A stretch of 33,724 bases of DNA, taken from positions 25,580 to 59,303 of the forward strand of contig MKTG01000073.1 in the NCBI GenBank assembly GCA_001897615.1, read 5' to 3'. The notes below the pieces were generated by a model. The model was not told the origin of the DNA and searched no databases. It saw only the letters and a list, made by a program, of their open reading frames with translations. Made by a program: the position numbers and the translations under genes. This stretch comes from Burkholderiales bacterium 68-10 (GTDB taxonomy: Bacteria; Pseudomonadota; Gammaproteobacteria; Burkholderiales; Burkholderiaceae_C). Shown one piece after another: positions 811 to 27,092 of the stretch. Numbering within the stretch: position 1 is the stretch's first letter; each line of letters starts with the position of its first letter.

Positions 811-861
811 TGCTATATAGTTTGTAGCTGCCGGCGCTGACCCGGAAGGCGCCGCAGCCCG
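811..861 (+). repeat. Dispersed palindromic repeat, copy 1
   Basis: The copy follows the pattern seen nine more times in this window: an AT-rich GCTAT start, then GTAGCTG, then a GCGC-containing hairpin half, then GGCGC and GCAGCC. It lies between two divergent genes and ends just before the TauE/SafE start, so it probably lies in the promoter or leader region. Confidence 0.7.
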
Positions 862-869
862 AACTTCCC

Positions 870-1619
870 ATGACCCCGATCACCGACTGGTCGTTCTACG
901 CCGTCGCCATCCCGGCGGTGCTGCTGCTGGGCGTCAGCAAGAGCGGCTTCGGCGCCGGCTTTGGCTCGCTGGCGGTGCCGCTGATGGCGCTCAGCGTCAC
1001 GGTGCCGCAGGCGGCGGCGATCCTGATGCCGGTGCTGCTGGTGATGGACCTGCTGGGCATCGCCGCCTTCCGCAAGGACTTCGACCGCGCGCTGCTGCGC
1101 TTCCTGCTGCCCTGGGGGTTGCTGGGCATCGGCATCGGCACGTTGACCTTCCAGCTGCTGCAGCCGCGCTGGGTGGCCGGCATCGTGGGCGTGTTCACCC
1201 TGCTGTTCCTGGCCCAGCGCCTGCTGTTTGCGCCACGCGCCGACGGCGCGCCGCCGCCGCGCTGGGCGGGGGCGCTGCTGACGGCCACCTCGGGCTTCAC
1301 CAGCTTCGTGGCGCACGCCGGCGGGCCGCCGATCAACGCCTACGTGATCCCGCTGCGGCTGACGCCGCTGCGCTTCACCGGCACCATGGCGTTCTTCTTC
1401 TTCGTCATCAACCTGGCGAAGTGGCTGCCCTATGCCTGGCTGGGGCTGCTGGACGGGCGCAACCTGGGCACCTCGCTGGTGCTGCTGCCGCTGGCGCCGA
1501 TCGGCGTGTGGGCCGGCGTGCGCATTGCGCGGCGCATCGACCAGCGGCTGTTCTACCGCTTCGTCTACCTGGGCATGCTGCTGACCGGGCTGAAGCTGGT
1601 GTGGGACGCCTGGGGTTGA
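870..1619 (+). CDS. TauE/SafE family sulfite/anion exporter
   Basis: The 249-residue integral membrane protein has about eight hydrophobic segments. The N-terminal GVSKSGFGAGFGSLAVPLM motif and the internal HAGGPPINAYVIPL motif mark the two pseudo-repeats of the TauE/SafE (former DUF81) family. Members export or import organosulfonates, sulfite or other small anions across the inner membrane; the substrate here is not evident, and no sulfonate or sulfite genes are adjacent. Length is normal. The start is the first ATG in frame, 8 bases after a dispersed repeat. The gene stands alone, followed by another repeat and a MITE-like element. Confidence 0.9.
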   Translation: MTPITDWSFYAVAIPAVLLLGVSKSGFGAGFGSLAVPLMALSVTVPQAAAILMPVLLVMDLLGIAAFRKDFDRALLRFLLPWGLLGIGIGTLTFQLLQPRWVAGIVGVFTLLFLAQRLLFAPRADGAPPPRWAGALLTATSGFTSFVAHAGGPPINAYVIPLRLTPLRFTGTMAFFFFVINLAKWLPYAWLGLLDGRNLGTSLVLLPLAPIGVWAGVRIARRIDQRLFYRFVYLGMLLTGLKLVWDAWG

Positions 1620-1622
1620 TTG

Positions 1623-1670
1623 AATGCTTCGTTATCGATAGCTTTTGGCGCGCTCTGGAGGCCGGTTTCC
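1623..1670 (+). repeat. Dispersed palindromic repeat, copy 2
   Basis: A short, degenerate copy (AATGCTTCGTTATCGATAGC, then TTTTGGCGCGCTC, then GAGGCC) starts three bases after the TauE/SafE stop codon. It could help end transcription of that gene. Confidence 0.6.
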
Positions 1671-1672
1671 GT

Positions 1673-1944
1673 TCGATTTGAGGCTCTTCTCGCGAATGAT
1701 GGTGATGGCCTGCGAGACAAGGCTTCGAATGGTCGCTTATTGGAAACCGCCAACCTCCGAACGCAGAGGACGCAGAGATTTCGCAGAGGACGCAGAAAGC
1801 CAGAAGATCCATCGGTTTTCTTTGCGTCCTCTGCGAATCCTTGGCGTCCTCTGCGTATGGCTGTTCATTTTTCTCATGCGTCGTGTCGCGGTGCGGCACT
1901 GATCAAGTACCTCACCATCATTCGCGAGTAGAGCCCGATTTGAT
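1673..1944. mobile_element. MITE-like non-coding element with inverted termini, copy 2
   Basis: The outer ends are inverted copies of one another: 1682-1705 matches the reverse complement of 1912-1935 at 23 of 24 bases, core CTCGCGAATGATGGTGA. No convincing gene lies inside. The centre holds four copies of a 12-mer, two direct and two inverted. Together with the strip to 1994 this accounts for the 375-bp gene-free stretch between the TauE/SafE and PiuC genes. Terminal inverted repeats, small size, lack of coding capacity and a second copy at the window start point to a MITE or similar passive element. No target-site duplication was identified with certainty. Confidence 0.75.
1761..1855. repeat. 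Nested inverted repeat built from CGCAGAGGACGC 12-mers
   Basis: The 12-mer CGCAGAGGACGC occurs at 1762-1773 and 1782-1793. Its reverse complement occurs at 1824-1835 and 1844-1855. Each pair is spaced by 20 bp, so the two arms (about 36 bp each) can fold into a long imperfect hairpin with a loop of roughly 25 bases. It sits in the middle of the MITE-like element. Confidence 0.85.
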
Positions 1945-1994
1945 GCCAGGCGCGTGGCGGTCGCCGTCCCGGGGCGCCATGGCGCCGCCGGGCT

Positions 1995-2684
1995 TCAGGT
2001 GCTGGCCCACATGCGCAGCAGGTTGTGGTAGGCGCCGGTCAGGCGGATGGCCTCGTCGGTCTCGCCGTGGCGCTGGCGCAAGGCCAGCAGCGCCATGTCC
2101 ATTTCGAACAGCAGGCGGCGCTGCTCCTGGCCGCGCACCATGCTCTCGATCCACAGGAAGCTGGCGATGCGGGCGCCGCGCGTGACGGGGCGCACCTCGT
2201 GCACGCTGCTGCCGGGGTAGAGCACGGCGTCGCCTGCCGGCAGCTTGACGGCCTGCTGGCCGTAGGTGTCGTGCACCACCAGTTCGCCGCCGTCGTAGTC
2301 GTCGGGTTCGGCCAGGAACACCGTGCACGAGACATCGCTGCGCACCCACTCACCGGTGGTCTGCGAGTGCATCACCGCGCCGTCGACGTGCTGGCCGTAG
2401 TGGTTGGCCGCGCCTTCGTAGCGGTTGAACAGGGGGTTGAAGATCTTGCGCGGCAGCGCGGCCGAGAAGAACACCGGGTCGCGCCGCAGCGCGGCCAGGA
2501 TCAGCTCGCGCAGCGTGGCCGCGCTGGCGCTGTCCTGCGCCAGCTGGCGGTTGCTCTTGCGCGTGGCGGCCTGGCCGCCGGCGCTGCGCGCGCCGTCGAC
2601 CCAGGGCGCGTCGGCGGCCAGCAGCAGGCCGCGCGCCTGTGCGACTTCATCGGCGGTGAGCAGGTTCTTGAGGTGGATCAGCAT
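1995..2684 (-). CDS. piuC: Fe(II)/2-oxoglutarate-dependent PKHD-type hydroxylase (PiuC/YbiX family)
   Basis: The 229-residue protein matches the prolyl/lysyl-type hydroxylase fold. The iron ligands are visible as H99 and D101 in HVDGA and H162 in the SSVHEVRPV segment, with R172 as the likely 2-oxoglutarate anchor. Length agrees with E. coli YbiX and Pseudomonas PiuC. In those species, as here, the gene follows a catecholate-siderophore TonB receptor, so a role in iron acquisition is inferred; the physiological substrate is not established to my knowledge. It is transcribed after the receptor, separated by a 100-bp gap with a strong hairpin, and may share its Fur-controlled promoter. Confidence 0.93.
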
Positions 2685-2690
2685 GGCATC

Positions 2691-2776
2691 TGGGAGCGTT
2701 GAGCGTTGGGCGTGTGGCGTCTAGCGTGTCAGGGGTATCGCCGCAATCGCGCCCAACGCTCACCGCTCAACGCTCA
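2691..2776. repeat. Long inverted repeat of tandem (A)GCGTTG heptamers between receptor and piuC
   Basis: A 12-base arm at 2701-2712 (GAGCGTTGGGCG) pairs perfectly with 2750-2761. Flanking tandem GAGCGTT / CAACGCTC units extend the pairing on both sides. It occupies the gap between the receptor stop and the piuC start, both on the minus strand. It could be an attenuator, an mRNA-stabilising stem or a mobile repeat. There is no U-run of a classic terminator. Confidence 0.75.
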
Positions 2777-2784
2777 ACCTGTTG

Positions 2785-5070
2785 TCAGAACAGGGCCTTG
2801 AGCGTCAGCTCCACCCGGCGCGGCGCACCGGGCTGGTAGAAGCCCCGGTACAGGCCGTCGGCGTAGAGCTTGTTGCTCAGGTTGGTGACGCTGAGCTTGA
2901 GCGTGGTGGCCTCGGTGAAGCTGTACTCGGCCATGGCGTCGAAGGTGACGAAGCCCTTGGCTTTCAGGGTGCGCTGGCCGTCCGGGTTCTGGCTGCCGCG
3001 GTAGTTGGCGCCCAGACCCAGGCGCAGTTGCGGCATGACGCGGTAGGTGGTCCAGACACTGCCGCTGTGGCGCGGCGTCAGACCTGGCCGGTCACCCTGG
3101 ACCTGTGAGCCCATGCCATCGGGGCGCAACGCGACGTTGCTGCGGTCGATCTTGGCCTTGGGGATCCAGGTGTGGTTCCAGAACATTTCCCAGGCCGGCG
3201 TGATGCGGCCGGCCAGGTTGAACTCCATGCCGGCGGCGTGCCGCTTGCCGGACAGCAACTCCTGCTGGGCCGCCGTGTCGGGGTCGGTGTTGCGCTCGTT
3301 GTACTTCTGGCTGTAGAACAGGGCCACGCCGGCCAGCATGCGCTTGTCCAGCAGGTCCCACTTGCCGCCGATCTCGATGTTGCGGCTCTTTTCTGGCGGG
3401 GTCTTGGCGCTGCGGCCGGTGGCCGGGTTGACCAGCACGCCGTACTGGTAGGCGTCGCCCGAGGTGTTGAACGAGGTGCCGTAGGAGATGTAGTAGGACG
3501 AGGCCTCGTCGGGCTGGAACAGCAGGCCCACGCGCGGGCTCCACAGGTTGTCGGTGCGCTGGTTGCCGAGCGTGCCGTCGGCGTTGCGGTACGAGCCCTT
3601 GAAGTGGTCGAAGCGCAGGCCGCCCACCAGCTTGATGGTGTCGGTGAGCGAGACCGTGTCCTGCACGTAGGCGCCGATGCTGCGCGACTCGAAGCGGTTG
3701 TAGGCCACCGGCGTGGCGCGGTTGTCGGGCACCCAGGCGCCGTCGTTGGGCGTGCCCACGGTGGTGCCGGGCAGGGTGCCGGGCAGTGGGTAGTTGTTGT
3801 TGCGCTTGGCGCTTTCGTCGTAGACATCGACGCCGCCGATGAGCGCGTGCTTGCGTCCACCCAGCTCGAAGCTGTTGCTGTAGTCGCTTTGCAGCATCAC
3901 CACGTCGCTCTGGCCGATGCGGCCCTTGGAGCGGCGCGTCAGGGCCGTGGTGTCGGTGATGTCGGACAGCACGGTGGGGGGGCGCGGCTGGGCAAAGCCG
4001 ATCGGGCTGCCCAGCAGGTCGCGCTCGTAGCGGCCGGCGCGCAGGCGGGTCTTGAGCTCGCCGCCGCCGTCCAGGCGGCGCACGTGGCCCAGCGTGGCGT
4101 AGGTGGCCGAGGTGTCCAGGTGGTCGTTCTTCAGGCCGTGGAAGTTCTTGGCCGGCAGCGTCGGGTGGATGGTGCCGTCGGCGCCGATGATCCAGGGGTG
4201 GGCGTAGTTGGGGCGGCCATCGATGTCCAGGTGGTAGAAGCCGACGCTGAACTCGTCGCGCGTGCCGATGCCCCAGCGGAAGGTGGGCGCCACGCCGATC
4301 TTGCGCTGCCTGGCGCCCCAGTTGTCGGCATCGTGGCCCAGCAGGTTCAGGCGCAGCGCCGCGTCCTGGCCGGTCTGCCAGTTGAAGTCGCCCTGCACGC
4401 GCTTCATGCCGCCGCTGCCCAGCGTGGCGCTGGCTTCGTGCTGGTTCAGCAGGAAGGGCTGCTTGCTGACCTGGTTGACCACGCCGCCGGTGGAGCCCTT
4501 GCCGAACAGCATGGAGGCCGAGCCCTTGATGACCTCGACGCGGTCGTCGTTGAAGGTGTCGCGCTCGTACAGCGGCGCATCGCGCAGGCCGTCGCGGTAG
4601 ATGTCGCCAGCCTGGCCGAGCGAGAAGCCGCGCAGGCGCACGTCTTCCTCGCCGGTCTCGCCGGCCTGGAAGGTGACGCCGGCGGTGGAGCGCAGCACCT
4701 CGCGGAAGTCGTCCAGGTTGCGGTCCTGGATCAGCTTTTCGGTCATCACGGTGACGCTTTGCGGGATGTCGCGCAGCTGCTGGTTGCCCTTGCCGATCTC
4801 GGTGCGGGTGGCGCGCAGCTGAGCCTTGCTGGTGGTGGGGCCGTCGGTGGCGGCGGCGTCACGCACGGTGACGGTGCCCAGCGTGCCGGCCACGTCGGCA
4901 CTGGCCGGGGCGGTCTGGGCCAGCGTGGCGGTGCTCAGCGAGCCGGCCAGCAGCATGGCGCCCAGCGGCAACAGGGCAGTGCTCTCTGCTTCAAAAGCAG
5001 GAGCTTTTGACGCTTGCTGGATAAGGGCTTTGGTCTTTTTTGACTTGAATTTCGGGGAGGTCACGGGCAT
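2785..5070 (-). CDS. fiu: TonB-dependent catecholate-siderophore receptor (Fiu-like)
   Basis: The 761-residue outer-membrane receptor has a basic leader, a hydrophobic signal segment at about 32-50 and a TonB-box-like stretch (TLGTVTVRD) at 63-71. The plug domain covers roughly 100-210 (IPQSVTVMTEKLIQDRNLDD, then VRLRGFS, then VEVIKGSASMLFGKGSTGG). A 22-strand barrel follows, ending in the expected terminal Phe. It should import ferric siderophores, probably catecholates, with TonB-ExbBD energy. A Fur box lies about 120 bp upstream, and a PiuC-type hydroxylase follows, as in E. coli fiu-ybiX. Oddity: residues 9-29 of the long leader are encoded by a dispersed repeat copy. The exact ligand is inferred only from context. 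Confidence 0.92.
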   Translation of the reverse strand: MPVTSPKFKSKKTKALIQQASKAPAFEAESTALLPLGAMLLAGSLSTATLAQTAPASADVAGTLGTVTVRDAAATDGPTTSKAQLRATRTEIGKGNQQLRDIPQSVTVMTEKLIQDRNLDDFREVLRSTAGVTFQAGETGEEDVRLRGFSLGQAGDIYRDGLRDAPLYERDTFNDDRVEVIKGSASMLFGKGSTGGVVNQVSKQPFLLNQHEASATLGSGGMKRVQGDFNWQTGQDAALRLNLLGHDADNWGARQRKIGVAPTFRWGIGTRDEFSVGFYHLDIDGRPNYAHPWIIGADGTIHPTLPAKNFHGLKNDHLDTSATYATLGHVRRLDGGGELKTRLRAGRYERDLLGSPIGFAQPRPPTVLSDITDTTALTRRSKGRIGQSDVVMLQSDYSNSFELGGRKHALIGGVDVYDESAKRNNNYPLPGTLPGTTVGTPNDGAWVPDNRATPVAYNRFESRSIGAYVQDTVSLTDTIKLVGGLRFDHFKGSYRNADGTLGNQRTDNLWSPRVGLLFQPDEASSYYISYGTSFNTSGDAYQYGVLVNPATGRSAKTPPEKSRNIEIGGKWDLLDKRMLAGVALFYSQKYNERNTDPDTAAQQELLSGKRHAAGMEFNLAGRITPAWEMFWNHTWIPKAKIDRSNVALRPDGMGSQVQGDRPGLTPRHSGSVWTTYRVMPQLRLGLGANYRGSQNPDGQRTLKAKGFVTFDAMAEYSFTEATTLKLSVTNLSNKLYADGLYRGFYQPGAPRRVELTLKALF
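4986..5044 (+). repeat. Dispersed palindromic repeat, copy 3, inside the receptor leader
   Basis: The plus strand reads GCTTCAAAAGCAGGAGCTTT, then TGACGCTTGCTGG, then ATAAGGGCTTTGG, then a T-run, matching the family pattern. On the minus strand it is translated in frame as receptor residues about 9-29 (SKKTKALIQQASKAPAFEAE). Confidence 0.65.
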
Positions 5071-5189
5071 GGGGGTAGTCAGCGTTGGACGAGGAAGGGA
5101 GGGTGCTGGCTACCTGGGTCCGTGCGGGAGGGTGGGTTGCCTCCCATGGCCGCTCGCTGGCGTGCAATGACGCTGTTGATCTTAAACAA

Positions 5190-5208
5190 AATGAGAATCA
5201 TTGTCATT
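5190..5208 (-). promoter_or_regulatory. Fur box upstream of the TonB receptor
   Basis: The 19-mer AATGAGAATCATTGTCATT closely matches the Fur consensus GATAATGATAATCATTATC, including the central AATCATT. It lies about 120 bp upstream of the receptor start, downstream of the bfr stop and terminator. It therefore most likely represses receptor (and perhaps piuC) transcription under iron sufficiency. Confidence 0.85.
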
Positions 5209-5241
5209 CAATATGTTGCAAATCAACGACGGACGGGCACG

Positions 5242-5263
5242 AAAAAGGGGCCACGAGGCCCCT
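5242..5263 (-). terminator. Rho-independent terminator of bfr
   Basis: Read on the minus strand, a GGGGCC / GGCCCC stem with a 4-base loop is followed by a run of five T. It sits 25-46 bases past the bfr stop and separates bfr from the Fur-controlled receptor unit. Confidence 0.82.
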
Positions 5264-5287
5264 GGTGCGCAGGACGGGCGTTGCGCG

Positions 5288-5764
5288 TCAGCTCGGCGAC
5301 TCCATCTGGCTTTGCAGGTAGTTCTGCAGACCGACTTTGTCCAGCAACTCGATCTGGGTTTCCAGAAAGTCGATGTGCTCCTCGGTGTCGTCCAGGATGT
5401 CCTGCAGCAGCTCGCGCGAGACGTAGTCGCGCACGCTCTCGCAGTGGGCGATGCCGTCCTTGATGGTGGCCTGCGCGGCCTGCTCCAGCTTCAGGTCGCA
5501 GCGCAGCATCTCGGGCACGTCCTCGCCCACCATCAGCTTGCCCAGGTCCTGCAGATTGGGCAGGCCGTCGAGCATCAGGATGCGGTCCATCAGGCGATCG
5601 GCGTGCTTCATCTCGCCGATGGATTCTTCATACTCCTTCTTCGCCAGCTTGCCCAGGCCCCAGTGCTTGAGCATGCGGTAGTGCAGGAAATACTGGTTGA
5701 TGGCGGTCAGCTCGTTCTTCAGCTGCGCTTGCAGGTGGGCGATGACGTTGGCGTCGCCTTTCAT
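5288..5764 (-). CDS. bfr: Bacterioferritin, heme-binding subunit type
   Basis: The 158-residue ferritin-like four-helix protein aligns end to end with E. coli Bfr (KGD start, GLQNYLQ near the C-terminus). The heme ligand M52 and ferroxidase-site residues E18, E51, H54, E94 and H130 are present. The residue three before H130 (E127 in E. coli numbering) is Thr in DDTEEHID, so one di-iron ligand appears replaced. The 24-mer stores iron as ferric mineral in the cytoplasm. Species with two Bfr genes can use one subunit for heme and another for ferroxidase activity, so a partner elsewhere in the genome is possible. A GGAG ribosome site precedes the ATG, and a terminator follows. Confidence 0.96.
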
Positions 5765-5904
5765 GGCGTTCTCCGGTTGTGGTGCGAAAGCCAGGCCATT
5801 CTAGAAGTGCGTTCACCTGCGTCCGCCGCAGGGGCTTTCGAAATGAGACTGGTTCGCGTGCCGGGCGGGCGACGGGCTTTCACGCGCCGGCATGGCGCTG
5901 CACA

Positions 5905-7629
5905 ATGCCCGACACCATGACCGAGCCCACGATTTCCGCTCAGCCCCTGCGTCGACGTGCCCGCGACCGGCTCAAGGGCCGCCAGCCCGAGGCCGCCGCG
6001 CTGGCCGAGGTGCGCGCCCTGATCGGCACGCCCGGCCCCGACGGCCACCGGCGCGACCTGCTGATCGAATACCTGCACCAACTGAACGACCACTATCACG
6101 GCCTGTTCGAGCGCCACCTGGTGGCGCTGGCGGCCGAGATGCGCCTGTCGATGGCCGAGGTGTACGAGGTGGCGAGCTTTTATCACCACTTCGAGGTGCG
6201 CAAGGACGACGCGCGCGCACCGCCGCTGACGGTGCGGGTGTGCACCTCGCTCAGTTGCCAGCTGGCCGGCGCCGATGCCCTGCTGGCGCGTGCACGCGAG
6301 CTGTTGGGCGCCCAGGTGCAGGTGCTGGCCGCCCCCTGCATCGGCCGCTGCGAGCAGGCACCGGCGGCGCTGGTGGGCCAGCGCGGGCTGGGGCAGGCCA
6401 CGGCTGAGGTGCTGGTTGAGGCATCCAATCAGGCGCTGACGCAGGAGGGGAGTGCGCCAGCAGCTATCGCAAAAATAGCATTCGACGACTACGTGCAAGC
6501 CGGCGGCTACGCCCTGGCGCAGGCCGTGGCGCGCGGCGAGCGCGATGCCGAGTCCATCCTCGCCACGCTGGAGCATGCCGGCCTGCGCGGGCTGGGCGGG
6601 GCGGGCTTTCCCGCCGGGCGCAAGTGGCGCATCGTGCGCGATCAGCCGGTGCCTCGCTATCTGGCGGTGAACATTGACGAGGGCGAGCCCGGCACCTTCA
6701 AGGACCGCTGGTATCTGGAGCGCGACCCGCACCGCTTTCTGGAAGGCGTGCTGATCGCCGCGCAGGTGGTGGGCGTCAGCCGCGTCTACATCTACCTGCG
6801 CGACGAATACCCCGAGTGCCGCGTCATCCTGGCGCAAGCCATCGCCGACCTGCAGGCCGCGCCAGGCCTGCGCGAGCTGCTACCTGAAACGCAGCTACGC
6901 CGCGGCGCCGGGGCCTATATCTGCGGCGAGGAATCGGCCATGCTGGAGAGCATCGAGGGCAAGCGTGGCGAGCCGCGGCTGCGCCCGCCCTATATCGCCC
7001 AGGTGGGGCTGTTCGGCCGTCCCACGCTGGAGCACAACTTCGAGACCCTGTACTGGGTGCGCGACATCCTGGCGCGCGGCGCGGACTGGTTTGCCGCACA
7101 GGGCCGCCATGGCCGGCAGGGACTGCGCAGTTTCAGCGTCAGTGGTCGCGTCAGGCAGCCCGGCGTCAAGCGCGCGCCGGCCGGCATCACGCTGCGCGAG
7201 CTGATCGACGAATACTGCGGCGGCATGGCCGAGGGGCACGAGCTGTACGCCTTCCTGCCGGGCGGGGCCTCGGGCGGCATCTTTCCGGCGCGGCTGGCCG
7301 ATGTGCCGCTGGACTTCGACACCTTGCAGCCGCACGGCGGCTTCATCGGCAGCGCGGGCGTCATCGTGCTCAGCCAGCACGACCGCGCGCGCGATGCGGC
7401 GCTGAACATGATGCGCTTTTTTGCCGCCGAAAGCTGCGGCCAGTGCACGCCCTGCCGCGTGGGCACCGTCAAGGCTTCGCGGCTGATGGAAGCGCCGGTG
7501 TGGGACGCCGCCACCCTGGCCGACCTTGGCCAGGTGATGGTCGACGCCAGCATCTGCGGCCTGGGCCAGGCCGCGCCCAACCCCATGCTGTGCGTGCAGC
7601 TCTACTTCGCGCACGAGGTGGAGTCATGA
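5905..7629 (+). CDS. fdh1B: NAD-dependent formate dehydrogenase, fused NuoE/NuoF-like (FdsG-FdsB) flavoprotein subunit
   Basis: Residues 20-170 resemble NuoE/FdsG, with [2Fe-2S] ligands C113, C118, C145 and C149. Residues about 195-574 resemble NuoF/FdsB: glycine-rich GLGGAGFPAGRKW at 229-241, the FMN/NADH segment NIDEGEPGTFKDRW at 256-269, GAYICGEES, and [4Fe-4S] ligands C511, C514, C517 and C551. It passes electrons from the formate-oxidising subunit to NAD+ in the cytoplasm. The fusion and its length match Methylorubrum FDH1 beta, whereas Cupriavidus and Rhodobacter encode the two parts separately. The linker (residues 175-193) is partly made of a dispersed repeat. The start could be the ATG at 5917, since CACAAT at 5901-5906 looks like a -10 box. 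It overlaps the next gene by four bases. Confidence 0.92.
   Translation: MPDTMTEPTISAQPLRRRARDRLKGRQPEAAALAEVRALIGTPGPDGHRRDLLIEYLHQLNDHYHGLFERHLVALAAEMRLSMAEVYEVASFYHHFEVRKDDARAPPLTVRVCTSLSCQLAGADALLARARELLGAQVQVLAAPCIGRCEQAPAALVGQRGLGQATAEVLVEASNQALTQEGSAPAAIAKIAFDDYVQAGGYALAQAVARGERDAESILATLEHAGLRGLGGAGFPAGRKWRIVRDQPVPRYLAVNIDEGEPGTFKDRWYLERDPHRFLEGVLIAAQVVGVSRVYIYLRDEYPECRVILAQAIADLQAAPGLRELLPETQLRRGAGAYICGEESAMLESIEGKRGEPRLRPPYIAQVGLFGRPTLEHNFETLYWVRDILARGADWFAAQGRHGRQGLRSFSVSGRVRQPGVKRAPAGITLRELIDEYCGGMAEGHELYAFLPGGASGGIFPARLADVPLDFDTLQPHGGFIGSAGVIVLSQHDRARDAALNMMRFFAAESCGQCTPCRVGTVKASRLMEAPVWDAATLADLGQVMVDASICGLGQAAPNPMLCVQLYFAHEVES
6427..6483 (-). repeat. Dispersed palindromic repeat, copy 4, in the fdh1B interdomain linker
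   Basis: Its reverse complement reads AATGCTATTTTTGCGATAGC, then TGCTGGCGCACTC, then GCGTCAGCGCCTGAT, matching the family. It is translated in frame between the NuoE-like and NuoF-like halves, as part of QALTQEGSAPAAIAKIAF. Confidence 0.65.
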
Positions 7630-10469
7630 GCGCCGCCGCCCCCATCGCCTTCGAGCTTGACGGCCAGGCCGTCAGCGCCTTCGAGGGCGAGAGCATCCTG
7701 CAGGCGGCCGAGCGCCACGGCGTCGCCATTCCGCGCCTATGCTTCACCGACGGCCTGCGCGCCGACGGCAACTGCCGCGCCTGCGTGGTCGAGGTGGAGG
7801 GCGAGCGCACCCTGGCGCCCAGCTGCTGCCGCGCCGTGCAGCCGGGCATGAAGGTGCGCGCCGCCAGCGAGCGCGCGCGCCAGTCGCAAAACCTGGTGCT
7901 GGAGCTGCTGCTGGCCGAGCTGCCCGCGCAAGGCCACAAGTGGCTCGACGACGACGCCACACAGCCGCATGGAGAATTGAGCCAATGGGCGGCCCAGCGC
8001 AGCATCCACGTGCGCGACGCGCTACAAACCTTGAAGCGCACCCAGCCCGCGCCCGATCTGAGCCACCCCGCCATGGCGGTCAACCTAGACGCCTGCATTC
8101 AGTGCACGCGCTGCGTGCGCGCCTGCCGCGAGGCACAGGTCAACGACGTCATCGGCTACGCCGGCCGCGGGGCCGAGGCGCGCATCGTGTTCGACCTGGG
8201 CGATGCGATGGGCGCCAGCAGCTGCGTGGCCTGCGGCGAATGCGTGCAGGCCTGCCCCACCGGCGCGCTGATCCCCAAGACGCATATCGGGCCGCAGCGG
8301 GTCGATCGCAGCGTCGATTCGGTCTGCCCGTTCTGCGGCGTCGGCTGCCAGATCACCTACCACGTGCGCGATGAAAAGATCGTCAGCGTCAGCGGCCGCG
8401 GCGGCCCGGCCAACGAGGGGCGGCTGTGCGTCAAGGGGCGCTTCGGCTTCGACTACGTGGCCAGCCCCGACCGCCTGACGCGCCCGCTGATCCGCAAGCC
8501 GGGCGTGCCCAAGGACGTGGCGCATTGCGAGCAGCCGCCCGACTGGCGAGAGGTATTTCGAGAAGCCACCTGGGACGAGGCGCTGGAGCTGGCCGCCGGC
8601 GGTTTGCAGGCGCTCAAGGCCGGACACGGCCCCAAGGCCCTGGCCGGCTTTGGCAGCGCCAAGGGCAGCAACGAGGAGGCCTACCTGTTCCAGAAGCTGG
8701 TGCGCACCGGCTTTGGCAGCAACAACGTCGACCACTGCACCCGCCTGTGCCACGCCAGCAGCGTGGCGGCGCTGCTGGAGGGCGTGGGCTCGGGCGCCGT
8801 CAGCAACCCGGTGCGCGACGTGGAACATGCCGAGCTGATTCTCATCATCGGCTCCAACCCCACGTCCAACCACCCGGTGGCCGCCACCTGGATGAAGAAC
8901 GCCGCCCAGCGCGGCGCCAGGATCGTGCTGGCCGACCCGCGCGCCACCGACATCGCGCGCCACGCCTGGCGCGTGCTGCAGTTCCGCCCCGGGGCCGACG
9001 TGGCGCTGCTCAACGCGCTGCTGCACGTGATCGTCACCGAGGGGCTGTGCAACGAAACCTTCTTGCGCGAGCGCGCCGACAACTTCGCCGCGCTGGCCGC
9101 CAACGTGCAGGGCTACAGCCCCGAAGCCATGGCGCCGATCTGCGGTATCCCGGCCGACACCATCCGCGAAGTGGCGCGTGCCTACGCCACGGCGCGCTCG
9201 GCCATGATTCTGTGGGGCATGGGCGTGAGCCAGCACGTGCATGGCACCGACAACGCGCGCTGCCTGATCGCGCTGGCCACCTGCACCGGCCAGTTGGGCC
9301 GCCCCGGCACCGGCCTGCACCCGCTGCGCGGCCAGAACAACGTGCAGGGCGCCAGCGACGCCGGCCTGATCCCGATGATGTACCCCAACTACCAGCGCGT
9401 CGACGATGCCGGTGCGCGCCAGTGGTTCGAGCAGTTCTGGGGCCAGCCGCTGGACGCCGAACCCGGCTACACCGTGGTCGAGATCATGCACAAGGCACTG
9501 GCGCCCGAGACCGACCCGCACAAGGTGCGCGGCATGTACATCATGGGCGAGAACCCGGCCATGAGCGACCCCGACCTGAACCACACGCGCCACGCGCTGG
9601 CCAGCCTGCAACACCTGGTGGTGCAGGACATCTTCTTGACCGAGACCGCCTGGCTGGCCGACGTGGTGCTGCCCGCCAGCGCCTGGCCCGAGAAGACCGG
9701 CAGCGTCAGCAACACCGACCGCATGGTGCAACTGGGCCGTCAGGCCCTGCAACCGCCGGGCGACGCGCGCGCCGACCTGTGGATCATCCAGCAGCTGGCG
9801 CGGCGCCTGGGCCTGACCTGGGACTATGAAAACGAGAGCTGCTTGCGCTTGCCAGACGGGCACGATGGCCCGGTTTCATCTGAAAACCATCACGGCGTCG
9901 AAGTGGTCTACGAGGAAATGCGCCGCGCCATGCACGGCGCCATCGCCGGCATCGGCTGGGAGCGCCTGGTGCGCGAATCCAGCGTCACCTACCCCTGCCT
10001 GAGCGAGGACGACCCGGGTCAGCCCATCGTCTTCACCGACCGCGTGCCCACACCCAATGGCCGCGTGCAGCTGGTGCCGGCCGACATCATCCCGCCCGAC
10101 GAGCGTCCCGACGCCGACTACCCGCTGGTGCTGATCACCGGACGCCAGCTCGAACACTGGCACACCGGCGCCATGACGCGGCGCGCCCAGGTGCTCGACG
10201 CGCTGGAGCCGGCGCCCACGGTGTCGATGCACGGCGACGATCTGGCGCGCCTGGGGCTGGCGCCGGGCGCGCTGGTGCACGTGACCTCGCGCCGCGGCCA
10301 GGTCACGCTGGCGGTGCGGCGCGACGACGGCACGCCCGTGGGCGGCGTGTTCATCCCCTTCGCCTACCGCGAGGCCGCGGCCAACCTGCTGACCAACGCC
10401 GCGCTGGACCCGTTCGGCAAGATTCCGGAGTTCAAGTATTGCGCGGTGCGGGTGGAAGGCGCACCATAG
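7626..10469 (+). CDS. fdh1A: Formate dehydrogenase catalytic (molybdenum/tungsten bis-MGD) subunit with NuoG-like N-terminus
   Basis: The 947-residue protein oxidises formate to CO2. The N-terminal [2Fe-2S] domain has C39, C50, C53 and C67 or C68. Two ferredoxin-type [4Fe-4S] clusters follow (C157/160/163/167 and C200/203/206/210). The molybdopterin domain opens with CPFCGVGC (C234, C237, C241), and the metal-ligand Cys is C375 in HCTRLCHASSVA. The His/Cys cluster motif that NuoG and FdsA carry after the first domain is not visible near residues 95-130. The start is set by the ATGA overlap with the upstream stop. Residues about 733-755 are encoded by a dispersed repeat. FdhD further downstream would be needed for cofactor sulfuration. 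Confidence 0.95.
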   Translation: MSAAAPIAFELDGQAVSAFEGESILQAAERHGVAIPRLCFTDGLRADGNCRACVVEVEGERTLAPSCCRAVQPGMKVRAASERARQSQNLVLELLLAELPAQGHKWLDDDATQPHGELSQWAAQRSIHVRDALQTLKRTQPAPDLSHPAMAVNLDACIQCTRCVRACREAQVNDVIGYAGRGAEARIVFDLGDAMGASSCVACGECVQACPTGALIPKTHIGPQRVDRSVDSVCPFCGVGCQITYHVRDEKIVSVSGRGGPANEGRLCVKGRFGFDYVASPDRLTRPLIRKPGVPKDVAHCEQPPDWREVFREATWDEALELAAGGLQALKAGHGPKALAGFGSAKGSNEEAYLFQKLVRTGFGSNNVDHCTRLCHASSVAALLEGVGSGAVSNPVRDVEHAELILIIGSNPTSNHPVAATWMKNAAQRGARIVLADPRATDIARHAWRVLQFRPGADVALLNALLHVIVTEGLCNETFLRERADNFAALAANVQGYSPEAMAPICGIPADTIREVARAYATARSAMILWGMGVSQHVHGTDNARCLIALATCTGQLGRPGTGLHPLRGQNNVQGASDAGLIPMMYPNYQRVDDAGARQWFEQFWGQPLDAEPGYTVVEIMHKALAPETDPHKVRGMYIMGENPAMSDPDLNHTRHALASLQHLVVQDIFLTETAWLADVVLPASAWPEKTGSVSNTDRMVQLGRQALQPPGDARADLWIIQQLARRLGLTWDYENESCLRLPDGHDGPVSSENHHGVEVVYEEMRRAMHGAIAGIGWERLVRESSVTYPCLSEDDPGQPIVFTDRVPTPNGRVQLVPADIIPPDERPDADYPLVLITGRQLEHWHTGAMTRRAQVLDALEPAPTVSMHGDDLARLGLAPGALVHVTSRRGQVTLAVRRDDGTPVGGVFIPFAYREAAANLLTNAALDPFGKIPEFKYCAVRVEGAP
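9823..9888 (+). repeat. Dispersed palindromic repeat, copy 5, inside fdh1A
   Basis: It reads CTATGAAAACGAGAGCTGC, then TTGCGCTTGCCAGACGGGC, then ATGGCCCGGTTTCAT. The GCGCTTGCCAGACGGGC core is identical to the intergenic copy near 27056. In frame it encodes a stretch with NESCLRLPDGHDGPVSSEN between two conserved segments of the catalytic subunit. Confidence 0.75.
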
Positions 10470-10520
10470 CTGGCGGCGCTCGACCGGCAGGCGCGCACGC
10501 ATTCGGGCGATACTGCCATT

Positions 10521-10539
10521 GCCTGCCGCGACGGCAGGC
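10521..10539 (+). terminator. Possible terminator or processing hairpin after fdh1A
   Basis: GCCTGCCG and CGGCAGGC form a perfect 8-bp stem with a 3-base loop 52 bases past the fdh1A stop. No T-run follows, so it could instead be a partial terminator or an mRNA-stabilising stem between fdh1A and the Bug gene. Confidence 0.45.
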
Positions 10540-10580
10540 CGGTACGACGTGCTGTTGGCCCCCAAGAAAGAGGTGACGAT

Positions 10581-11576: not shown

Positions 11577-11580
11577 GACC

Positions 11581-13793: not shown

Positions 13794-13813
13794 AACTCTG
13801 GACTGGAATCGAC

Positions 13814-14551: not shown

Positions 14552-14554
14552 CGC

Positions 14555-15394: not shown

Positions 15395-15407
15395 CAGGCG
15401 TCCAGGC

Positions 15408-16304
15408 TCAGCCCTCGCGCTCCATTTCGCGGATCAGCGCCTGCGCCTCGGCGCCCTCGGGGATGGGGCGGCCGCTGTCGCGCCACTCGACGGCGGCCTT
15501 GAAGCCGTGCGTCTGCGCATGGCGGCGAAACCACACGCCTTCGGGGTTGTGGCGCGTGATGCCGTCGAACACCGTGGCCAGCATCTGCGTCTGCTCCAGC
15601 CCCATGGTCAGCATGACCTGGTTGACCACCAGCTTGTGCATCTGCAGGTGGCCGCGCGGCACGCCGGCGATGCGCTCGGCCAGGGCGCGCGTGGCGCTGG
15701 CCAGCTCGGCCGCGGGCACGGCCTGGTTGGCCAGGCCCCAGGCGGCGGCGGTGCGGCCGTCGATCACGTCACCGGTGAACATCATCTGCTTGGCCCGCGT
15801 GGGGCCCAGGCGATAGGTCCACATCGCCGTGGTGGGGCAGCCCCACACGCGCGTGGGCATGTAGCCGATGCGCGCATCCTCGGCCATCACCAGCAGGTCG
15901 CAACACAGGGCGATGTCGCTGCCGCCGGCCACCGCCGCGCCGTGCACCTGGGCGATGGTGGGCTTGGGGCAGCGCCACAGGCTCATGAAGTCTTCCGTGT
16001 AGCGCTTCATGGTGCGGTAGTCGAGCGCCGGGTCCCAGGGCGCGGATTCCTGCTGGCAGGGGTGTTCGATGTGCTGCTCGGCCGTGGCGGCCAGGTCGTA
16101 GCCGCCGCAAAAGCCCTTGCCAGCGCCCTCCACCACGATCACGTGCACCTCGTCGTCGGCCACGGCCCAGTCGACGGCGGCGCGGATTTCGCCCGGCATG
16201 TCGTCGTTGATGGCGTTGAGCCGCTCGGGGCGGTTCAGCAGCAGGCGCGCGATGCGCGGCTGCTCGGGGTCCTTGTCGATGCGCAGGGTGCTGAAGGCGG
16301 GCAT
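15408..16304 (-). CDS. Crotonase-superfamily protein, long form
   Basis: The 298-residue protein is longer than usual for crotonases. It contains [17 protein letters not shown], the first oxyanion-hole motif [10 protein letters not shown] and the second [17 protein letters not shown]. The usual Glu in the second motif is Asp. The second catalytic Glu region reads [16 protein letters not shown], without an obvious acidic residue. An insertion follows the first motif ([17 protein letters not shown]). Activity may differ from hydration: isomerase, lyase or CoA-ester hydrolase are possible. The ATG at 16304 is preceded by AGGAG. It converges with fdhD with a 13-bp gap and is divergent from the permease gene. 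Confidence 0.9.
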
Positions 16305-16380
16305 GGGAGTCTCCTGGGTGGGTGCGCCATGGTAGGGCGGGGCGCGGCAGCCGGCTGTCGCTTTGCGTACAGTGCGGGCC

Positions 16381-18903: not shown

Positions 18904-18910
18904 ATCTTGT

Positions 18911-18967
18911 TTGCTATTTATGTGATAGCTGCTTGCGCTCGTCCGTCGGGCGTGCGGGGTTGATTTG
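18911..18967 (+). repeat. Dispersed palindromic repeat, copy 8, at the kinase start
   Basis: It reads TTGCTATTTATGTGATAGC, then TGCTTGCGCTCGTCCG, then TCGGGCGTGCGGGGTTGATT. It fills the gap between the permease stop and the kinase, and its tail contains the proposed TTG start codon at 18965. Confidence 0.78.
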
Positions 18968-20509
18968 ATTCAAACCCTGAAGGCCTGGCGCGACGCGCGT
19001 CGGCGCTTGCTGGCGCTGGGCGCGCTGGCGTGCGTGCTGGGTGCCACGGCCATCGTGCGCGTGGACTTGGCGCAGCGGCGCGACGCCTTTCTGGCCGAGG
19101 CGCGCGATGCCCATCGCCTGCTGGGCCAGGGCACGGCGCGGCTGGACGCGGTGCTGGCCACGCTGGCGCTGCTGGCGCCACCGGGGCCCGCGGGCGCCGA
19201 CGCCACGGCGCGCCTGCCGGCGCTGTACCCGCAGGTGCTGGCGGCCTGGCGGCGCGAGGCCGCGGGCGGCGACTGGCCTGATGCCGCAGCCCGTTCTGGC
19301 GTGCCGCTGGCTGCGTTGGCGCAGGCCGAGGCCAGGTCGCGCGGGCTGCCCGCCGCCACGCGGCACGCGGTGCTGGCCGGGCTGGACACTGCGCGGGGGC
19401 GCTACACCCTGGTGCTGGCGGGCACGCCGGCCAGCTACGCGCTGCAGGTCGATGCGCGCCAGCTGGTCGCGCCCGGCGCCTGGCCCTGGCGCAGCGGACA
19501 GCCGATGCTGGCGCGCCTGGTCTGGGGCGGCCAGGCCGTCACCCTGCAAGACGAGCGCGGCGACCCGGCGCGCCCGCGCGGGTTGACGCGCGGCTTCACC
19601 TTCGAGCAGACGCTGGCCAGCGCCAGCCAGGACTTCGGTTTCCAGGCGCAGCGTCTGGTCGGCCCGGCGCAGTGGCCCTGGGCCGCGCTGGTGGCTTGGG
19701 CCTTGCTGTGTGCGGGGGCTACGGCGCTGGCGCTGCGCGGCCAGCGCCAGCGCGCCGAACGCCGGCGGGCCGCCGAGCTGGAGCGCCTGGCGCGCACCGC
19801 CCGTCTGGGGACGCTGGGCGAGTTGGCCGCCGGCGTGGCGCACGAACTGAACCAGCCGTTGACCGCGGCGCTGAGCGGCACGCAGACGGCGCTGCGCCTG
19901 CTGCGCGACGAACCGCTGGCCGCACCCACCCAGGCCACCGTGCTGCAGGCGCTGGAGTTGGCCGCCGCGCAGGTACGCCGCGCGGGTGAAGTGCTGGCGC
20001 GATTGCGGCGCCAGATGCAACCCGGCGCCGCTCCTGCGGCGCTGGCACCGGTCGAGCTGGGCGTGCTGGTGCGGCACCTGGGGGTGCTGTGGGCTCCCGA
20101 ACTGGCGCGCCACGCCATCGCCTGGCGCGTCGAAGGCCAGGCGCCACCGGCGCTGGGTGACGCCGTCGCTGCCGAGCAGGTGCTGCACAACCTGCTGGGC
20201 AATGCCGTGCAGGCACTGCAACTCGGCCCGTCCACGGGCCGGCAGATCACGCTGCGGCTGTCGGCCACGCTCACGCACGCCTGCTGCGCGGTACGCGACA
20301 ACGGCCCCGGCGTGCCGGCGGCGGCGCAGGCGCGGCTGTTCGCGCCTTTCTTCAGCACCCGTGACGGCGGCCTGGGCCTGGGTCTGCCGCTGTGCCAGAC
20401 CCTGGCGCTGGCCATGAACGGCGCCGTGCGTTTTCAAGTCCCGGTGGGCGGCGGCGCCGAGTTCGTGCTCGAACTGCCGCTGGCTCGCACATCCCCAGCA
20501 CCGCCATGA
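18965..20509 (+). CDS. Membrane-bound sensor histidine kinase (DctB-like layout)
   Basis: The 514-residue kinase has a first membrane segment at about residues 15-33, a periplasmic sensor region to about 235 with no family I recognise, and a second membrane segment at about 237-258. The HisKA domain has phospho-acceptor H293 in AHELNQPL. The HATPase domain carries an N-box (NLLGNAVQAL), DNGPGVP, and GLGLGLPLCQ. It should autophosphorylate and signal to the regulator encoded next, with which it overlaps by four bases. The TTG start is the first usable one, and the codon lies in the tail of a dispersed repeat. The sensed signal is unknown; neighbours suggest heme or redox state. Confidence 0.92.
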   Translation: MIQTLKAWRDARRRLLALGALACVLGATAIVRVDLAQRRDAFLAEARDAHRLLGQGTARLDAVLATLALLAPPGPAGADATARLPALYPQVLAAWRREAAGGDWPDAAARSGVPLAALAQAEARSRGLPAATRHAVLAGLDTARGRYTLVLAGTPASYALQVDARQLVAPGAWPWRSGQPMLARLVWGGQAVTLQDERGDPARPRGLTRGFTFEQTLASASQDFGFQAQRLVGPAQWPWAALVAWALLCAGATALALRGQRQRAERRRAAELERLARTARLGTLGELAAGVAHELNQPLTAALSGTQTALRLLRDEPLAAPTQATVLQALELAAAQVRRAGEVLARLRRQMQPGAAPAALAPVELGVLVRHLGVLWAPELARHAIAWRVEGQAPPALGDAVAAEQVLHNLLGNAVQALQLGPSTGRQITLRLSATLTHACCAVRDNGPGVPAAAQARLFAPFFSTRDGGLGLGLPLCQTLALAMNGAVRFQVPVGGGAEFVLELPLARTSPAPP

Positions 20510-22456: not shown

Positions 22457-22533
22457 TTACGCTATCAAAACGATGGCTGTTGGCGCTTGTTCGAGAAATG
22501 GCGACGCCATGAAATTGATAGCTGTCAGCGTAA
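22457..22533. repeat. Dispersed palindromic repeat, copy 9, with a bidirectional stem
   Basis: From 22462 it reads GCTATCAAAACGATGGCTG, then TTGGCGCTTGTTCGAG, then ATGGC, a degenerate family copy. TTACGCTATCAA at 22457-22468 can pair, with a bulge, with TTGATAGCTGTCAGCGTAA at 22515-22533. It lies between the convergent ankyrin and LysR genes and may end transcription of both. Confidence 0.6.
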
Positions 22534-23975: not shown

Positions 23976-23994
23976 GTGTGTCCGGGCATTTACC

Positions 23995-24797: not shown

Positions 24798-25471
24798 ACC
24801 AGGCCTTTCTCGGCCATCGACAGCGCCTGGCCCGGTGCCACGATGACGTGGTCGAGCACGCGCACGTCGACCAGTGCCAGCGCGGCTTTCAGCGTCTGGG
24901 TGAGCGCCTCGTCGGCGCGGCTGGGCTGCACGCTGCCGCTGGGGTGGTTGTGCGCCAGCACCACGGCGGCGGCGTGGTGGTGCAGCGCGCGCAGCACCAC
25001 CTCGCGCGGGTAGACGCTGGTCTGTGTCAGCGTGCCGCGAAACAACTCCTCCAGCGCAAGCAACCGGTGCTGGGCGTCCAGGAACAGGGCGGCGAACACC
25101 TCGTGGGGGCGTTGTCCCAGGTGCAGCTGAAGGTACTGTTTGACGGTGCTGGCGCTGTCCAGAGCCGGTTTTTCCTTGAGCTGCTCGGCCAGCGCGCGGC
25201 GCGCCAGCTCAAGCACGGCGATCAGCTCGGCGCGCTTGGCGCTGCCGCCCAGGCCCTTGATGCGCTTGAGATCGTCGGCGCCAGCGTGCAGCAGACCGGC
25301 CATGCCGCCGAAGTCGTCCAGCAGCTCCTGCGCCATTTGCAGCACGCCGCGGCCGGCGGTGCCGGTGCGCAGCAGCAGCGCCAGCAGCTCGGCGTCGCTC
25401 AGGGCGCCAGCGCCGCGCGCCAGCAGCTTCTCGCGCGGGCGCGCGTCGGCCGGAAGGTCTTTGAGCGACAT
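24794..25471 (-). CDS. radC: RadC-family JAB/MPN protein
   Basis: The 225-residue protein has a helix-hairpin-helix-like N-terminus ([14 protein letters not shown]) and a C-terminal JAB1/MPN metalloprotease-like domain. The domain carries the metal motif in [15 protein letters not shown] (H-x-H, then S, then D) and an upstream Glu in [11 protein letters not shown]. Length is typical. It is annotated historically as DNA repair, though its biochemical function is unresolved. It is divergent from fkpB and overlaps smr downstream. Confidence 0.95.
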
Positions 25472-25496
25472 GCGGATGGCCTGGTCGGTGGTTTCC

Positions 25497-25502
25497 TAGA
25501 AT
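25497..25502 (+). promoter_or_regulatory. Possible -10 box for fkpB-ispH
   Basis: TAGAAT lies 26 bases before the fkpB ATG, in the short gap between divergent radC and fkpB. No clear -35 hexamer is seen at the right spacing, so this is tentative. Confidence 0.35.
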
Positions 25503-25528
25503 CGGGGCAGTTTATCGGGACACCATTC

Positions 25529-25972
25529 ATGAGCACCGTCGAGCCAGGATCCTTTCTGACCTTGCATTACCGCCTCTCCGGCCCGCAGGGCGATGTCGTC
25601 AGCACCTTCGGTGGGCCGCCGGCCACGCTGTCGCTGGGCAGCGGCCAGTTGTCGCCGGCGGTCGAGCGGCGCCTGCTGGGTCTGCAGGAGGGCGCGCGCG
25701 CCAGCTTCGACATGCCGGCCGGTGAAGCCTTCGGCGAGCGCAACCCGGACATGATCCAGTGGCTGGCGCGCCAGGAGCTGGACGAGCTGGGCGATCCGCA
25801 GGAGCAGTACGCCGTGGGCGATGTGATCCAGCTGCCCACGCCCGATGGCCAGGGCCAGTTCGGCGCCGTGGTGCAGGCGGTGCGGGACGATGGCGCGTTG
25901 CGGCTGGACTTCAATCACCCGCTGGCCGGCCTGCCGGTGACGTTTGAAGTGCAGGTGATCGGGATCCTATGA
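25529..25972 (+). CDS. fkpB: FKBP-type peptidyl-prolyl cis-trans isomerase (SlpA/FkpB type)
   Basis: The 147-residue protein matches the bacterial SlpA-like FKBP group: [33 protein letters not shown], and an inserted-in-flap chaperone region ([15 protein letters not shown]). It catalyses prolyl isomerisation and acts as a cytoplasmic chaperone. The gene overlaps ispH by four bases, reproducing the fkpB-ispH pair of E. coli. The start is the ATG at 25529; an upstream open extension is not needed for the domain. Confidence 0.94.
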
Positions 25973-27030
25973 GCTCGCGTGATCCCGCCGATGCCTCTGC
26001 CGTGCCGCCGGCTCTGTCTGTCACCCGCACGGCGGCTGCCGAGGGCGCCGCCGGCATGCCGCGTGCCGGCGCCAGCATCCTGCTGGCCGAGCCGCGCGGC
26101 TTCTGTGCCGGGGTGGACCGCGCCATCGAGATCGTCGAGCGCGCGCTGGCCAAGTTCGGCGCGCCGATCTACGTGCGCCACGAGATCGTGCACAACACCT
26201 ACGTGGTGAACGACCTGAAGGCCAAGGGCGCGATCTTCATCGAGGACCTGGCGGACGTGCCACCCGGCGCCACGCTGGTGTTCAGCGCGCACGGCGTGCC
26301 CAAGTCGGTCGAGCGCGAGGCCGAGGCGCGCGGTTTCCGCGTGTTCGACGCCACCTGCCCGCTGGTCAGCAAGGTGCACGTCGAAGTCGCCAAGCTGCAC
26401 CGCGAGGGCTTCGAATTCATCATGATCGGCCACAAGGGCCATCCCGAGGTCGAAGGCACCATGGGCCAGCTGCCCGGCGGCATCCACCTGGTCGAGGACG
26501 TGCAGGACGTGGCGCGCATCCAGCCGGCGCAGACCGACAAGCTGGCGCTGGTGACGCAGACCACGCTGAGCGTGGACGATGCGGCCGAGATCTCCGCCGC
26601 CGTGAAGGCGCGCTTTCCCATGGTGCGCGAGCCCAAGCAGCAGGACATCTGCTATGCCACGCAGAACCGGCAGGACGCGGTCAAGCTGCTGTCGCGCGAG
26701 GTCGACGTGGTGATCGTCGTCGGCAGCCCCACCAGCAGCAACAGCAACCGGCTGCGCGAGGTGGCCCTGAAGCTGGGCACCGCCGCCTACATGGTCGACA
26801 GCGCCGACGACCTCAGGCCCGAATGGGTGCAGGACCGGGCGCGCATCGGCCTGACGGCTGGGGCGTCGGCCCCCGACGTGCTGGTGCGCCAGGTGATCGA
26901 GCGACTGCGCGCCCTGGGGGCGTTGTCGGTGCGCCAGCTGGCCGGCATCGAGGAAACCATGAAATTTCCCCTGCCCAAGGGCCTGAAGCTGGACGGCGCC
27001 AGCGAAGACAGCCTCGCCCATCTGCGTTGA
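25969..27030 (+). CDS. ispH: 4-hydroxy-3-methylbut-2-enyl diphosphate reductase
   Basis: The 353-residue iron-sulfur enzyme performs the last step of the MEP isoprenoid pathway, producing IPP and DMAPP. The three cluster cysteines are C46 ([14 protein letters not shown]), C130 ([12 protein letters not shown]) and C228 ([12 protein letters not shown]). The motif [11 protein letters not shown] is also present. The N-terminus has about 35 extra residues compared with E. coli; an alternative start at M30 would remove most of it. The ATG chosen overlaps the fkpB stop (ATGA), supporting coupling. Confidence 0.97.
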
Positions 27031-27032
27031 AT

Positions 27033-27092
27033 GCAATTGATTTGATAGCTGCTGGCGCTTGCCAGACGGGCGCAAGCCGTGGTTTTGACTCT
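27033..27092 (+). repeat. Dispersed palindromic repeat, copy 10, between ispH and serS
   Basis: It reads TTGATTTGATAGCTGC, then TGGCGCTTGCCAGACGGGC, then GCAAGCCGTGGTTTTGACT, and is one of the best-preserved copies. It begins three bases after the ispH stop. Confidence 0.8.

Follow-up and report, generated by a model that had tools for sequence, protein, structure and literature searches.

A 33,724-nt stretch of the genome of Burkholderiales bacterium 68-10 (contig MKTG01000073.1, positions 25,580 to 59,303; the whole stretch is called the window here, and all window coordinates follow its own numbering) carries copies of a dispersed 68-nt near-palindromic element whose key letters change more slowly in place than the rest, suggesting that a good many of the copies function as sites rather than being debris. 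We read them, at slightly short of an even chance, as a family resembling repetitive extragenic palindromic (REP) sequences and bacterial interspersed mosaic elements (BIMEs), once spread by copying insertion and with its survivors kept by selection as putative bipartite nucleic-acid sites. Fragments of the family were known before; what is added here is evidence that copies are under nucleotide-level selection where they stand.

The element and its copy number

In the aligned copies, information ran from approximately model position 7 to position 74 and was flat beyond either end, delimiting a 68-nt near-palindromic element with sharp ends and a total of ~58 bits. The majority sequence (one base in front included) was GAATGCTATTAAATTGATAGCTGCTGGCGCTTGCCAGGCAAGCGCTAGAGCCCGATTTGACTCGAAACC, and the consensus ends, taken by eye from the position table, were GAATGCTA... 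and ...GACTTGAAAC. Positions T12, A24, G25, C26 and T27 were conserved in 96-100% of the copies, and many others stood near 50-80%. A total of 108 copies at E<0.01 was found in 422 kb of contiguous sequence from the same genome (three contigs, with 49, 45 and 14 copies), that is, one per 3.9 kb, which extrapolates to ~930 copies in the 3.64 Mb genome.

Subfamilies or recent bursts were considered and rejected. In a similarity comparison, from which 22 of 143 copies were excluded as gapped, partial or at edges, no two copies with unrelated flanks were more than 72% alike, while column shuffling gave a mean top value of 72.6%; closer pairs were confined to a duplicated array, and doublet linkage was never above z 3.6.

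Stability and substitution rates at orthologous sites

All stability and rate data came from one pair of close species (genomes G039 and G010 in our labelling), compared in two test directions that overlap. Copies were retained at the orthologous place in 45/53 and 46/53 cases, with mean flank identities of 91.5 and 92.3%, whereas a neutral simulation left a copy in one genome only for 443/1267 detected pairs at 11% divergence and 543/1082 at 17%, against the observed 8/53 and 7/53. The presence/absence differences that the preliminary description of this DNA expected of a genuine repeat did exist, as no copy was found at the orthologous site in 15 of the 106 tests.

For the rate test, the 20 most informative positions were chosen from own-genome copies only, and 39 loci recognised in either genome were compared. 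Substitutions at these positions (69/775) were fewer than in the rest of the element (269/1691; ratio 0.56, p=1.5e-6), whereas the neutral simulation with the same detection step gave ratios of 0.96-0.97. The same test gave 34/375 versus 145/833 in the 19 copies lying in open frames, and 20/159 versus 55/240 at third codon positions (p=0.013). The rate per position fell as the information among paralogues rose (Spearman -0.65, with 41 of the 45 retained pairs), and the coefficients were -0.60 and -0.61 when detection of the partner was not required; the later rate analyses used pairs of unchanged length only (35, 37, 39 and 39 loci).

The slowest positions formed two inverted repeats, pairing 11-14 with 22-25 (plus 26-27) and 32-36 with 46-50, which correspond to CTAT-N7-ATAGCT and GCGCT-N9-AGCGC with centres 23 bp apart. 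This set, defined post hoc, showed 53/780 changes versus 305/1772 elsewhere (ratio 0.39, compared with 0.93-0.96 simulated), and 31/380 versus 159/873 in coding copies. At third codon positions, changes numbered 10/118 in the inverted repeats, compared with 68/302 elsewhere in the element and 235/1520 in flanking sequence. Across the three codon positions the rest of the element changed at 50/287, 41/284 and 68/302, a weak pattern beside that of the flanks (86/1520, 65/1520 and 235/1520), indicating that the encoded peptide is hardly constrained.

Copies in the window

E-values in the window were obtained with two profiles, one from the own genome and one from other genera. To avoid the circularity of a profile built from the genome under test, the second took 103 core matches in 104 loci of other genera as its seed and went through one iteration on these loci. 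It recovered the matches starting at 27030, 18911, 9823, 13795(-), 13052(-), 6482(-), 5010, 22459 and 810 at E<=0.0013, the copy at 1623 at E=0.014, and an additional partial tandem unit at 22505-22530 (E=0.011), and it had no match at E<10 in the reversed window. The own-genome profile placed eight of the ten copies at E<=2e-5 and the remaining two at 0.0015-0.0021, while its best match in control sequences (a first-order Markov imitation and the reversed sequence of the same loci) was at E=0.15. When at most two mismatches were allowed, the core GATAGCTGCTNGCGCTTG gave 309 genome-wide matches versus 0 for the reversed pattern. Both profiles thus bear out the preliminary description in its ten copies, seven in one orientation and three in the other (Table 1), with one refinement: the copy at 1623 is interrupted by a 254-nt miniature inverted-repeat transposable element (MITE).

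Table 1. Element copies and associated features in the window, with E-values from the own-genome and other-genera profiles
Start	End	Strand	Feature	Evidence
807	876	+	Element copy between divergent genes, just upstream of a TauE/SafE-like gene (870-1619)	E=6e-10 own, 0.0013 other-genera
1621	1681	+	Element copy after a stop codon, 3' end cut by the MITE	E=0.0021 own, 0.014 other-genera; MITE junction and duplication
1682	1935		Separate 254-nt MITE with 24-nt terminal inverted repeats and 8-bp target duplication CGATTTGA (1674-1681, 1936-1943)	At the 3' end of the element
4983	5052	+	Element copy upstream of a TonB-dependent receptor gene	E=2e-5 own, 2e-4 other-genera
6415	6484	-	Element copy within a NuoE/NuoF-type fusion gene, inter-domain linker	E=8e-10 own, 3e-6 other-genera; Pfam domains
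9818	9887	+	Element copy within the formate dehydrogenase alpha (FdhA) gene, linker before the C-terminal domain	E=1e-11 own, 2e-8 other-genera; alignment to 7vw6_A
10465	10494	+	Possible degraded element copy after FdhA	E=0.01 own; absent with other-genera profile
12988	13057	-	Element copy within an NDP-forming acyl-CoA synthetase gene, linker before ATP-grasp	E=6e-6 own, 1e-6 other-genera; orthologues
13729	13798	-	Element copy across the stop codon of the acyl-CoA synthetase gene	E=7e-13 own, 3e-8 other-genera
18908	18977	+	Element copy between an FtsX-domain gene and a histidine kinase gene	E=3e-10 own, 1e-9 other-genera
22457	22493	+	Truncated element copy between convergent genes	E=0.0015 own, 0.001 other-genera
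22503	22530	+	Partial second element unit, in tandem with 22457-22493	E=0.072 own, 0.011 other-genera
27028	27097	+	Element copy from the LytB stop codon onward, ahead of the seryl-tRNA synthetase gene; best of the window	E=1e-14 own, 3e-13 other-genera

The region from 28632 to 33724 was free of copies, as reported earlier, but its acquisition, with which this was said to fit, gains little from it because only 1.3-1.8 copies are expected there at the measured densities (chance of none ~0.17-0.27). A tRNA gene followed by genes for a PriCT_2/AAA primase-helicase, a PolB-type exonuclease and a PDDEXK phage endonuclease was observed at 28499-33724. This part is likely an integrated island, for which the gene content beside a tRNA gene is better evidence than the absence of the repeat.

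Placement relative to genes

Placement was analysed for 140 own-genome copies (E<1e-3) on the three contigs, using a simple gene caller and excluding seven contig-edge copies from the context counts. As in the window, copies lay in both intergenic and coding DNA, as first described: 84 were intergenic, 22 overlapped a gene end and 34 were inside genes, on contigs of which 84-89% was called coding. The 99 non-coding copies with two neighbours were distributed as 29 convergent, 7 divergent and 63 tandem (40 in opposite and 23 in same-strand orientation), compared with 50 convergent, 50 divergent and 304 tandem gene pairs in the background of the same contigs, divergent promoters being avoided. 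Median distances were 9 nt to a stop codon and 49 nt to a start codon, so that the copies sit at gene 3' ends, a placement reported for REP sequences (PMC3733652). Orientation was balanced within 60 nt of a stop codon (43 same, 41 opposite), and it showed no consistent relation to GC skew, as a measure of replication strand, in six G039 stretches; an apparent strand pattern in the genome scans, seen only among the matches listed, was set aside.

Copies inside protein genes

All three coding copies of the window fell in linkers between Pfam domains. The FdhA copy is an in-frame insertion of ~21 residues relative to a distant homologue, formate dehydrogenase 7vw6_A, and the profile found a copy at this site in the orthologues of five genomes (G037, G031, G014, G039 and G018); on this alignment, insertion is supported once, which points to an old insertion event. 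Different inserts occupied the same spot in three further genomes (G008, G038 and G003; loci L346, L348 and L349), making this linker a hot spot of in-frame insertion. Another palindromic repeat of ~105 nt (L267:15225-15350), which has dozens of partial matches in G039 on either strand, gave no blastn match to these three inserts. The copy in the acyl-CoA synthetase linker was common to G017, G010 and G039, and G012, G004 and G031 lacked it.

Transposases, target duplications and a MITE that lands in the element

In GTAG-type REP systems the repeats flank a linked Y1 transposase, the REP-associated tyrosine transposase (RAYT). A search for the Y1 transposase family PF01797 gave no candidate in the own genome, which is 99.99% complete, indicating that hundreds of copies can be kept without a RAYT. 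Matches to PF01797 were found in 21 of 29 genomes of the genus, element-poor ones included. Among 30 transposase loci of the genus, two (L233 in G018 and L236 in G011) had copies within 500 nt on both sides; the flanked genes, of 235 and 248 aa, are possible REPtron-like units. Four Y1-transposase genes (L224, L230, L233 and L236), of a RAYT-like size of 235-265 aa, had a copy at the stop codon. Overall, 10 of the 17 copies at the 30 loci were no more than 500 nt away from a gene end, a zone that makes up 28 of 94 kb; given the general preference of copies for gene ends, these may be background, or they may be a relic of spread by a RAYT. Target duplications of 3-8 nt were no commoner around 122 copies than in shuffles, unlike in a classical DDE-type MITE. 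The lack of target duplication and of near-identical copies outside the duplicated array makes the copying phase look old.

The MITE of Table 1 belongs to a family of 199-254 nt with 24-nt terminal inverted repeats (GGCTCTACTCGCGAATGATGGTGA), of which nine paired copies were present in the sampled sequence, seven of them with exact 8-bp duplications. Eight of the nine abutted the 3' end of a profile copy, near positions 58-65, where the consensus reads CGATTTGA, and the ninth, that of the window, adjoins the copy at 1621-1681. The preference is strong but incomplete, given that three further MITE ends were unpaired and that a BLAST match of the MITE near 72,700 of contig C57 had no adjacent profile copy. 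A partial match to the MITE family was also observed at window 1-78, beside a run of N. A parallel is known from Pseudomonas putida, where, in the part of the source consulted, REPs are described as targets of the insertion element ISPpu9 (PMC8450116).

Taxonomic range

A scan with the exact core gave at least 117 stretches in named genomes; among the matches listed, most titles were of Comamonadaceae genera (Acidovorax, Comamonas, Polaromonas, Rhodoferax, Giesbergeria, Simplicispira, Extensimonas, Melaminivora and others), several assemblies were labelled only to higher ranks, and a lone Aliikangiella match looks like chance. At least 30 core matches were present in 14 of 120 genomes of the family (own genome included), and counts ranged from 0 to 641 in 18 relatives within the genus, indicating patchy amplification. 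Counts were near background in the 290 genomes, among 300 examined from the order Burkholderiales, that represent 49 other families: the maximum was 20 and the next value 10, with reversed controls of up to 16. The maximum came from a genome outside the main family (G296, family f35) with 0 matches in its control, a possible case of transfer or contamination. Plasmids seldom carried the element: at E<=1 it matched 10 of 72,556 records. The belief, voiced at the outset, that such repeats are common in Comamonadaceae therefore holds in the form of a dispersed family across genera, patchily amplified in one family.

Interpretation and rival explanations

Under the reading that we favour, the original spread would have been a REP-like copying insertion without target duplication, now rare or inactive, and a RAYT-type transposase may have carried it out. 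The inverted repeats would be read as double-stranded DNA by a putative dimeric DNA-binding protein, nucleoid-organising or topology-related; we prefer double-stranded DNA because stem covariation was absent (see below), orientation was indifferent, and the slowing was also seen inside open reading frames. A more far-reaching version, which we regard as doubtful, is a Comamonadaceae system of ~900 bipartite DNA sites where a putative conserved protein organises or relaxes the chromosome downstream of genes, the sites having been seeded by a copying element and individually selected even at silent positions inside protein genes, and the MITE having adapted to insert safely at them.

Several observations weigh against selected survivors of a copying element. 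Neighbouring bases were strongly coupled (AA 49, GG 35 and AG 7 at positions 45-46), for which we have no explanation. A clean 68-nt insertion was seen in none of the 12 of 15 absences that were displayed, and in the remaining three the other genome was longer, not shorter; some displayed absences were decayed copies of equal length, and at one (G010, contig C16, 40917) the spacer was 65 nt shorter, but the surroundings do not align. The acyl-CoA synthetase linker was of equal length or one residue longer in the genomes without the element, which therefore seemingly replaced sequence there, and the NuoEF copy came with only ~4 extra residues; simple insertion does not explain either length. 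The rates come from a single species pair, with coding frames assigned by a heuristic, and the ratio of 0.39 is inflated because the inverted-repeat set was picked after the rates had been seen (the non-circular ratio is 0.56). At third codon positions, the inverted repeats were slowed only moderately relative to all other positions, flanks included (10/118 versus 303/1822, p=0.019). Finally, the consensus RNA fold (z -3.77) was better than 199 of 200 shuffles, the window copies folded with z from -2.83 to 0.53 (three of eight below -2), and covariation has little room to show in stems so highly conserved.

These folds are what an RNA element would show, with hairpins at mRNA 3' ends kept by selection as terminators, processing sites or protection against exonucleases, and such an element would also suit copies placed right after stop codons and between convergent genes. 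In window 1-20000, 3 of 12 terminator-like sites (a G+C hairpin plus a U-run) fell within copies and three of eight copies held one, but the scan as a whole exceeded shuffles little (12 versus 8.2, sd 3.0). The paired positions themselves did not covary. In 139 copies, 73.1% of cells were paired in the two-hairpin form (73.6% when shuffled) and 68.1% in the long hairpin of the consensus minimum-energy fold (67.7%), with the outer stem paired in 54.8%; both structures exceeded their slid versions, as expected for structures derived from the consensus. RNAalifold returned no consensus pair, and Rfam at gathering threshold returned only a tRNA in the window. Neither paired cells nor compensations beyond shuffles were thus found in the hairpin covariation check advised by the preliminary description, and its idea of a small mobilised RNA-like element was not supported. 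Slowing within coding copies also speaks against an RNA element, which we consider rather unlikely.

An ancient, inactive REP- or MITE-type element, whose conservation reflects descent from one master and which has no present function, agrees with the patchy amplification in one family, the rarity on plasmids and the lack of any remaining target duplication; the differences in rate between positions in place and the retention above the neutral simulation make it improbable. DNA uptake sequences suggest by likeness another origin, in which point mutation and biased recombination would generate the copies where they lie, replacing sequence at constant length. The length of the acyl-CoA synthetase linker, equal or one residue greater without the element, fits such an origin, as do the lack of near-identical copies outside the duplicated array, the use of both strands, the presence in coding and intergenic DNA, and the stability at orthologous sites. 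By simple arithmetic, however, ~13 bits would suffice to mark ~930 sites in 3.6 Mb, against ~58 bits in the element, and FdhA carries an in-frame insertion; we hold this origin to be the least probable of those considered here.

REP-like repeats have been widely described, and to our knowledge selection on single copies has seldom been measured. The slowed letters can be measured copy by copy, and within genes apart from protein constraint, so that the letters to mutate can be named and the question of whether such repeats are junk or sites becomes testable in laboratory Comamonadaceae.

Comparison with known systems

The palindromic elements of Rickettsia are likewise palindromic and inserted in frame in protein genes. 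They are assigned to the CGTC type in the part of the source consulted (PMC3733652). The present family differs from them in that no CGTC tag was seen, in belonging to another bacterial class, and in the intergenic location of most copies. The BRE (beta-proteobacterial repeat element) repeats, as far as the source consulted describes them, are similarly betaproteobacterial, present in many Comamonadaceae, mostly intergenic and in some cases wholly inside genes, but they measure 75-91 bp, have 69% G+C in Bordetella and are arranged in tandem like variable number tandem repeats; it is by this description alone that they are set apart from the 68-nt element (PMC3110155). The low counts in the other Burkholderiales families, at most 20 core matches in any of 290 genomes, bear on this indirectly.

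The first 20-30 positions of the Pfam family DUF1010 (PF06231) gave weak matches antisense to element copies, and an integron-like array of the own genome contained four full DUF1010 units with one copy apiece. DUF1010 differs in being a protein model and not a repeat family, and the element does not extend into its second half. Since its first part looks like an antisense translation of the repeat, DUF1010 may be a spurious annotation in some cases. The array (L009:772-1990, contig C39) was composed of cassettes of ~262-300 nt with sites that we take, from their form, to be attC-like. An integron origin of the element was rejected, as the element and such sites occurred together only in the one array opened. 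The element was also observed on three IncP plasmids (L268, L269 and L270), in two of them within a DUF1010 gene that has a class 1 integron integrase and resistance genes nearby.

REP sequences of the GTAG and CGTC superfamilies, as presented in the part of the source consulted, share with this family a high copy number, a palindromic form, convergent or tandem arrangement, location at 3' ends and the presence of some copies in genes; they differ in being single palindromes of 20-40 nt with a GTAG or CGTC end tag, whereas this element has 68 nt, two inverted repeats and no such tag in its consensus (PMC3733652). The REP-type element suggested in the preliminary description agrees in placement and departs from strict REP sequences in form.

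No description of the full element was found in a literature search that was thin on subscription journals. Two anonymous motif pairs appear in Table 7 of PMC5217627, GCTTAT(N)5AAGCG with 114 copies in Acidovorax ebreus TPSY and ATAGCT(N)22CAAAAG with 125 copies in Polaromonas naphthalenivorans CJ2; the part consulted describes the pairs as mainly intergenic and close to genes, many of these convergent. In our 117 named loci, 29/29 and 1/1 matches to these pairs lay inside profile copies, with none in reversed sequence. Both pairs fit as fragments of this family by sequence, the second resting on a single match and the TPSY and CJ2 genomes lying outside the search. Where that source, in the part consulted, gives short word pairs from one genome each, without the full element, its ends, range, constraint or mechanism, the family described here accounts for two anonymous published motifs and part of a Pfam protein family.

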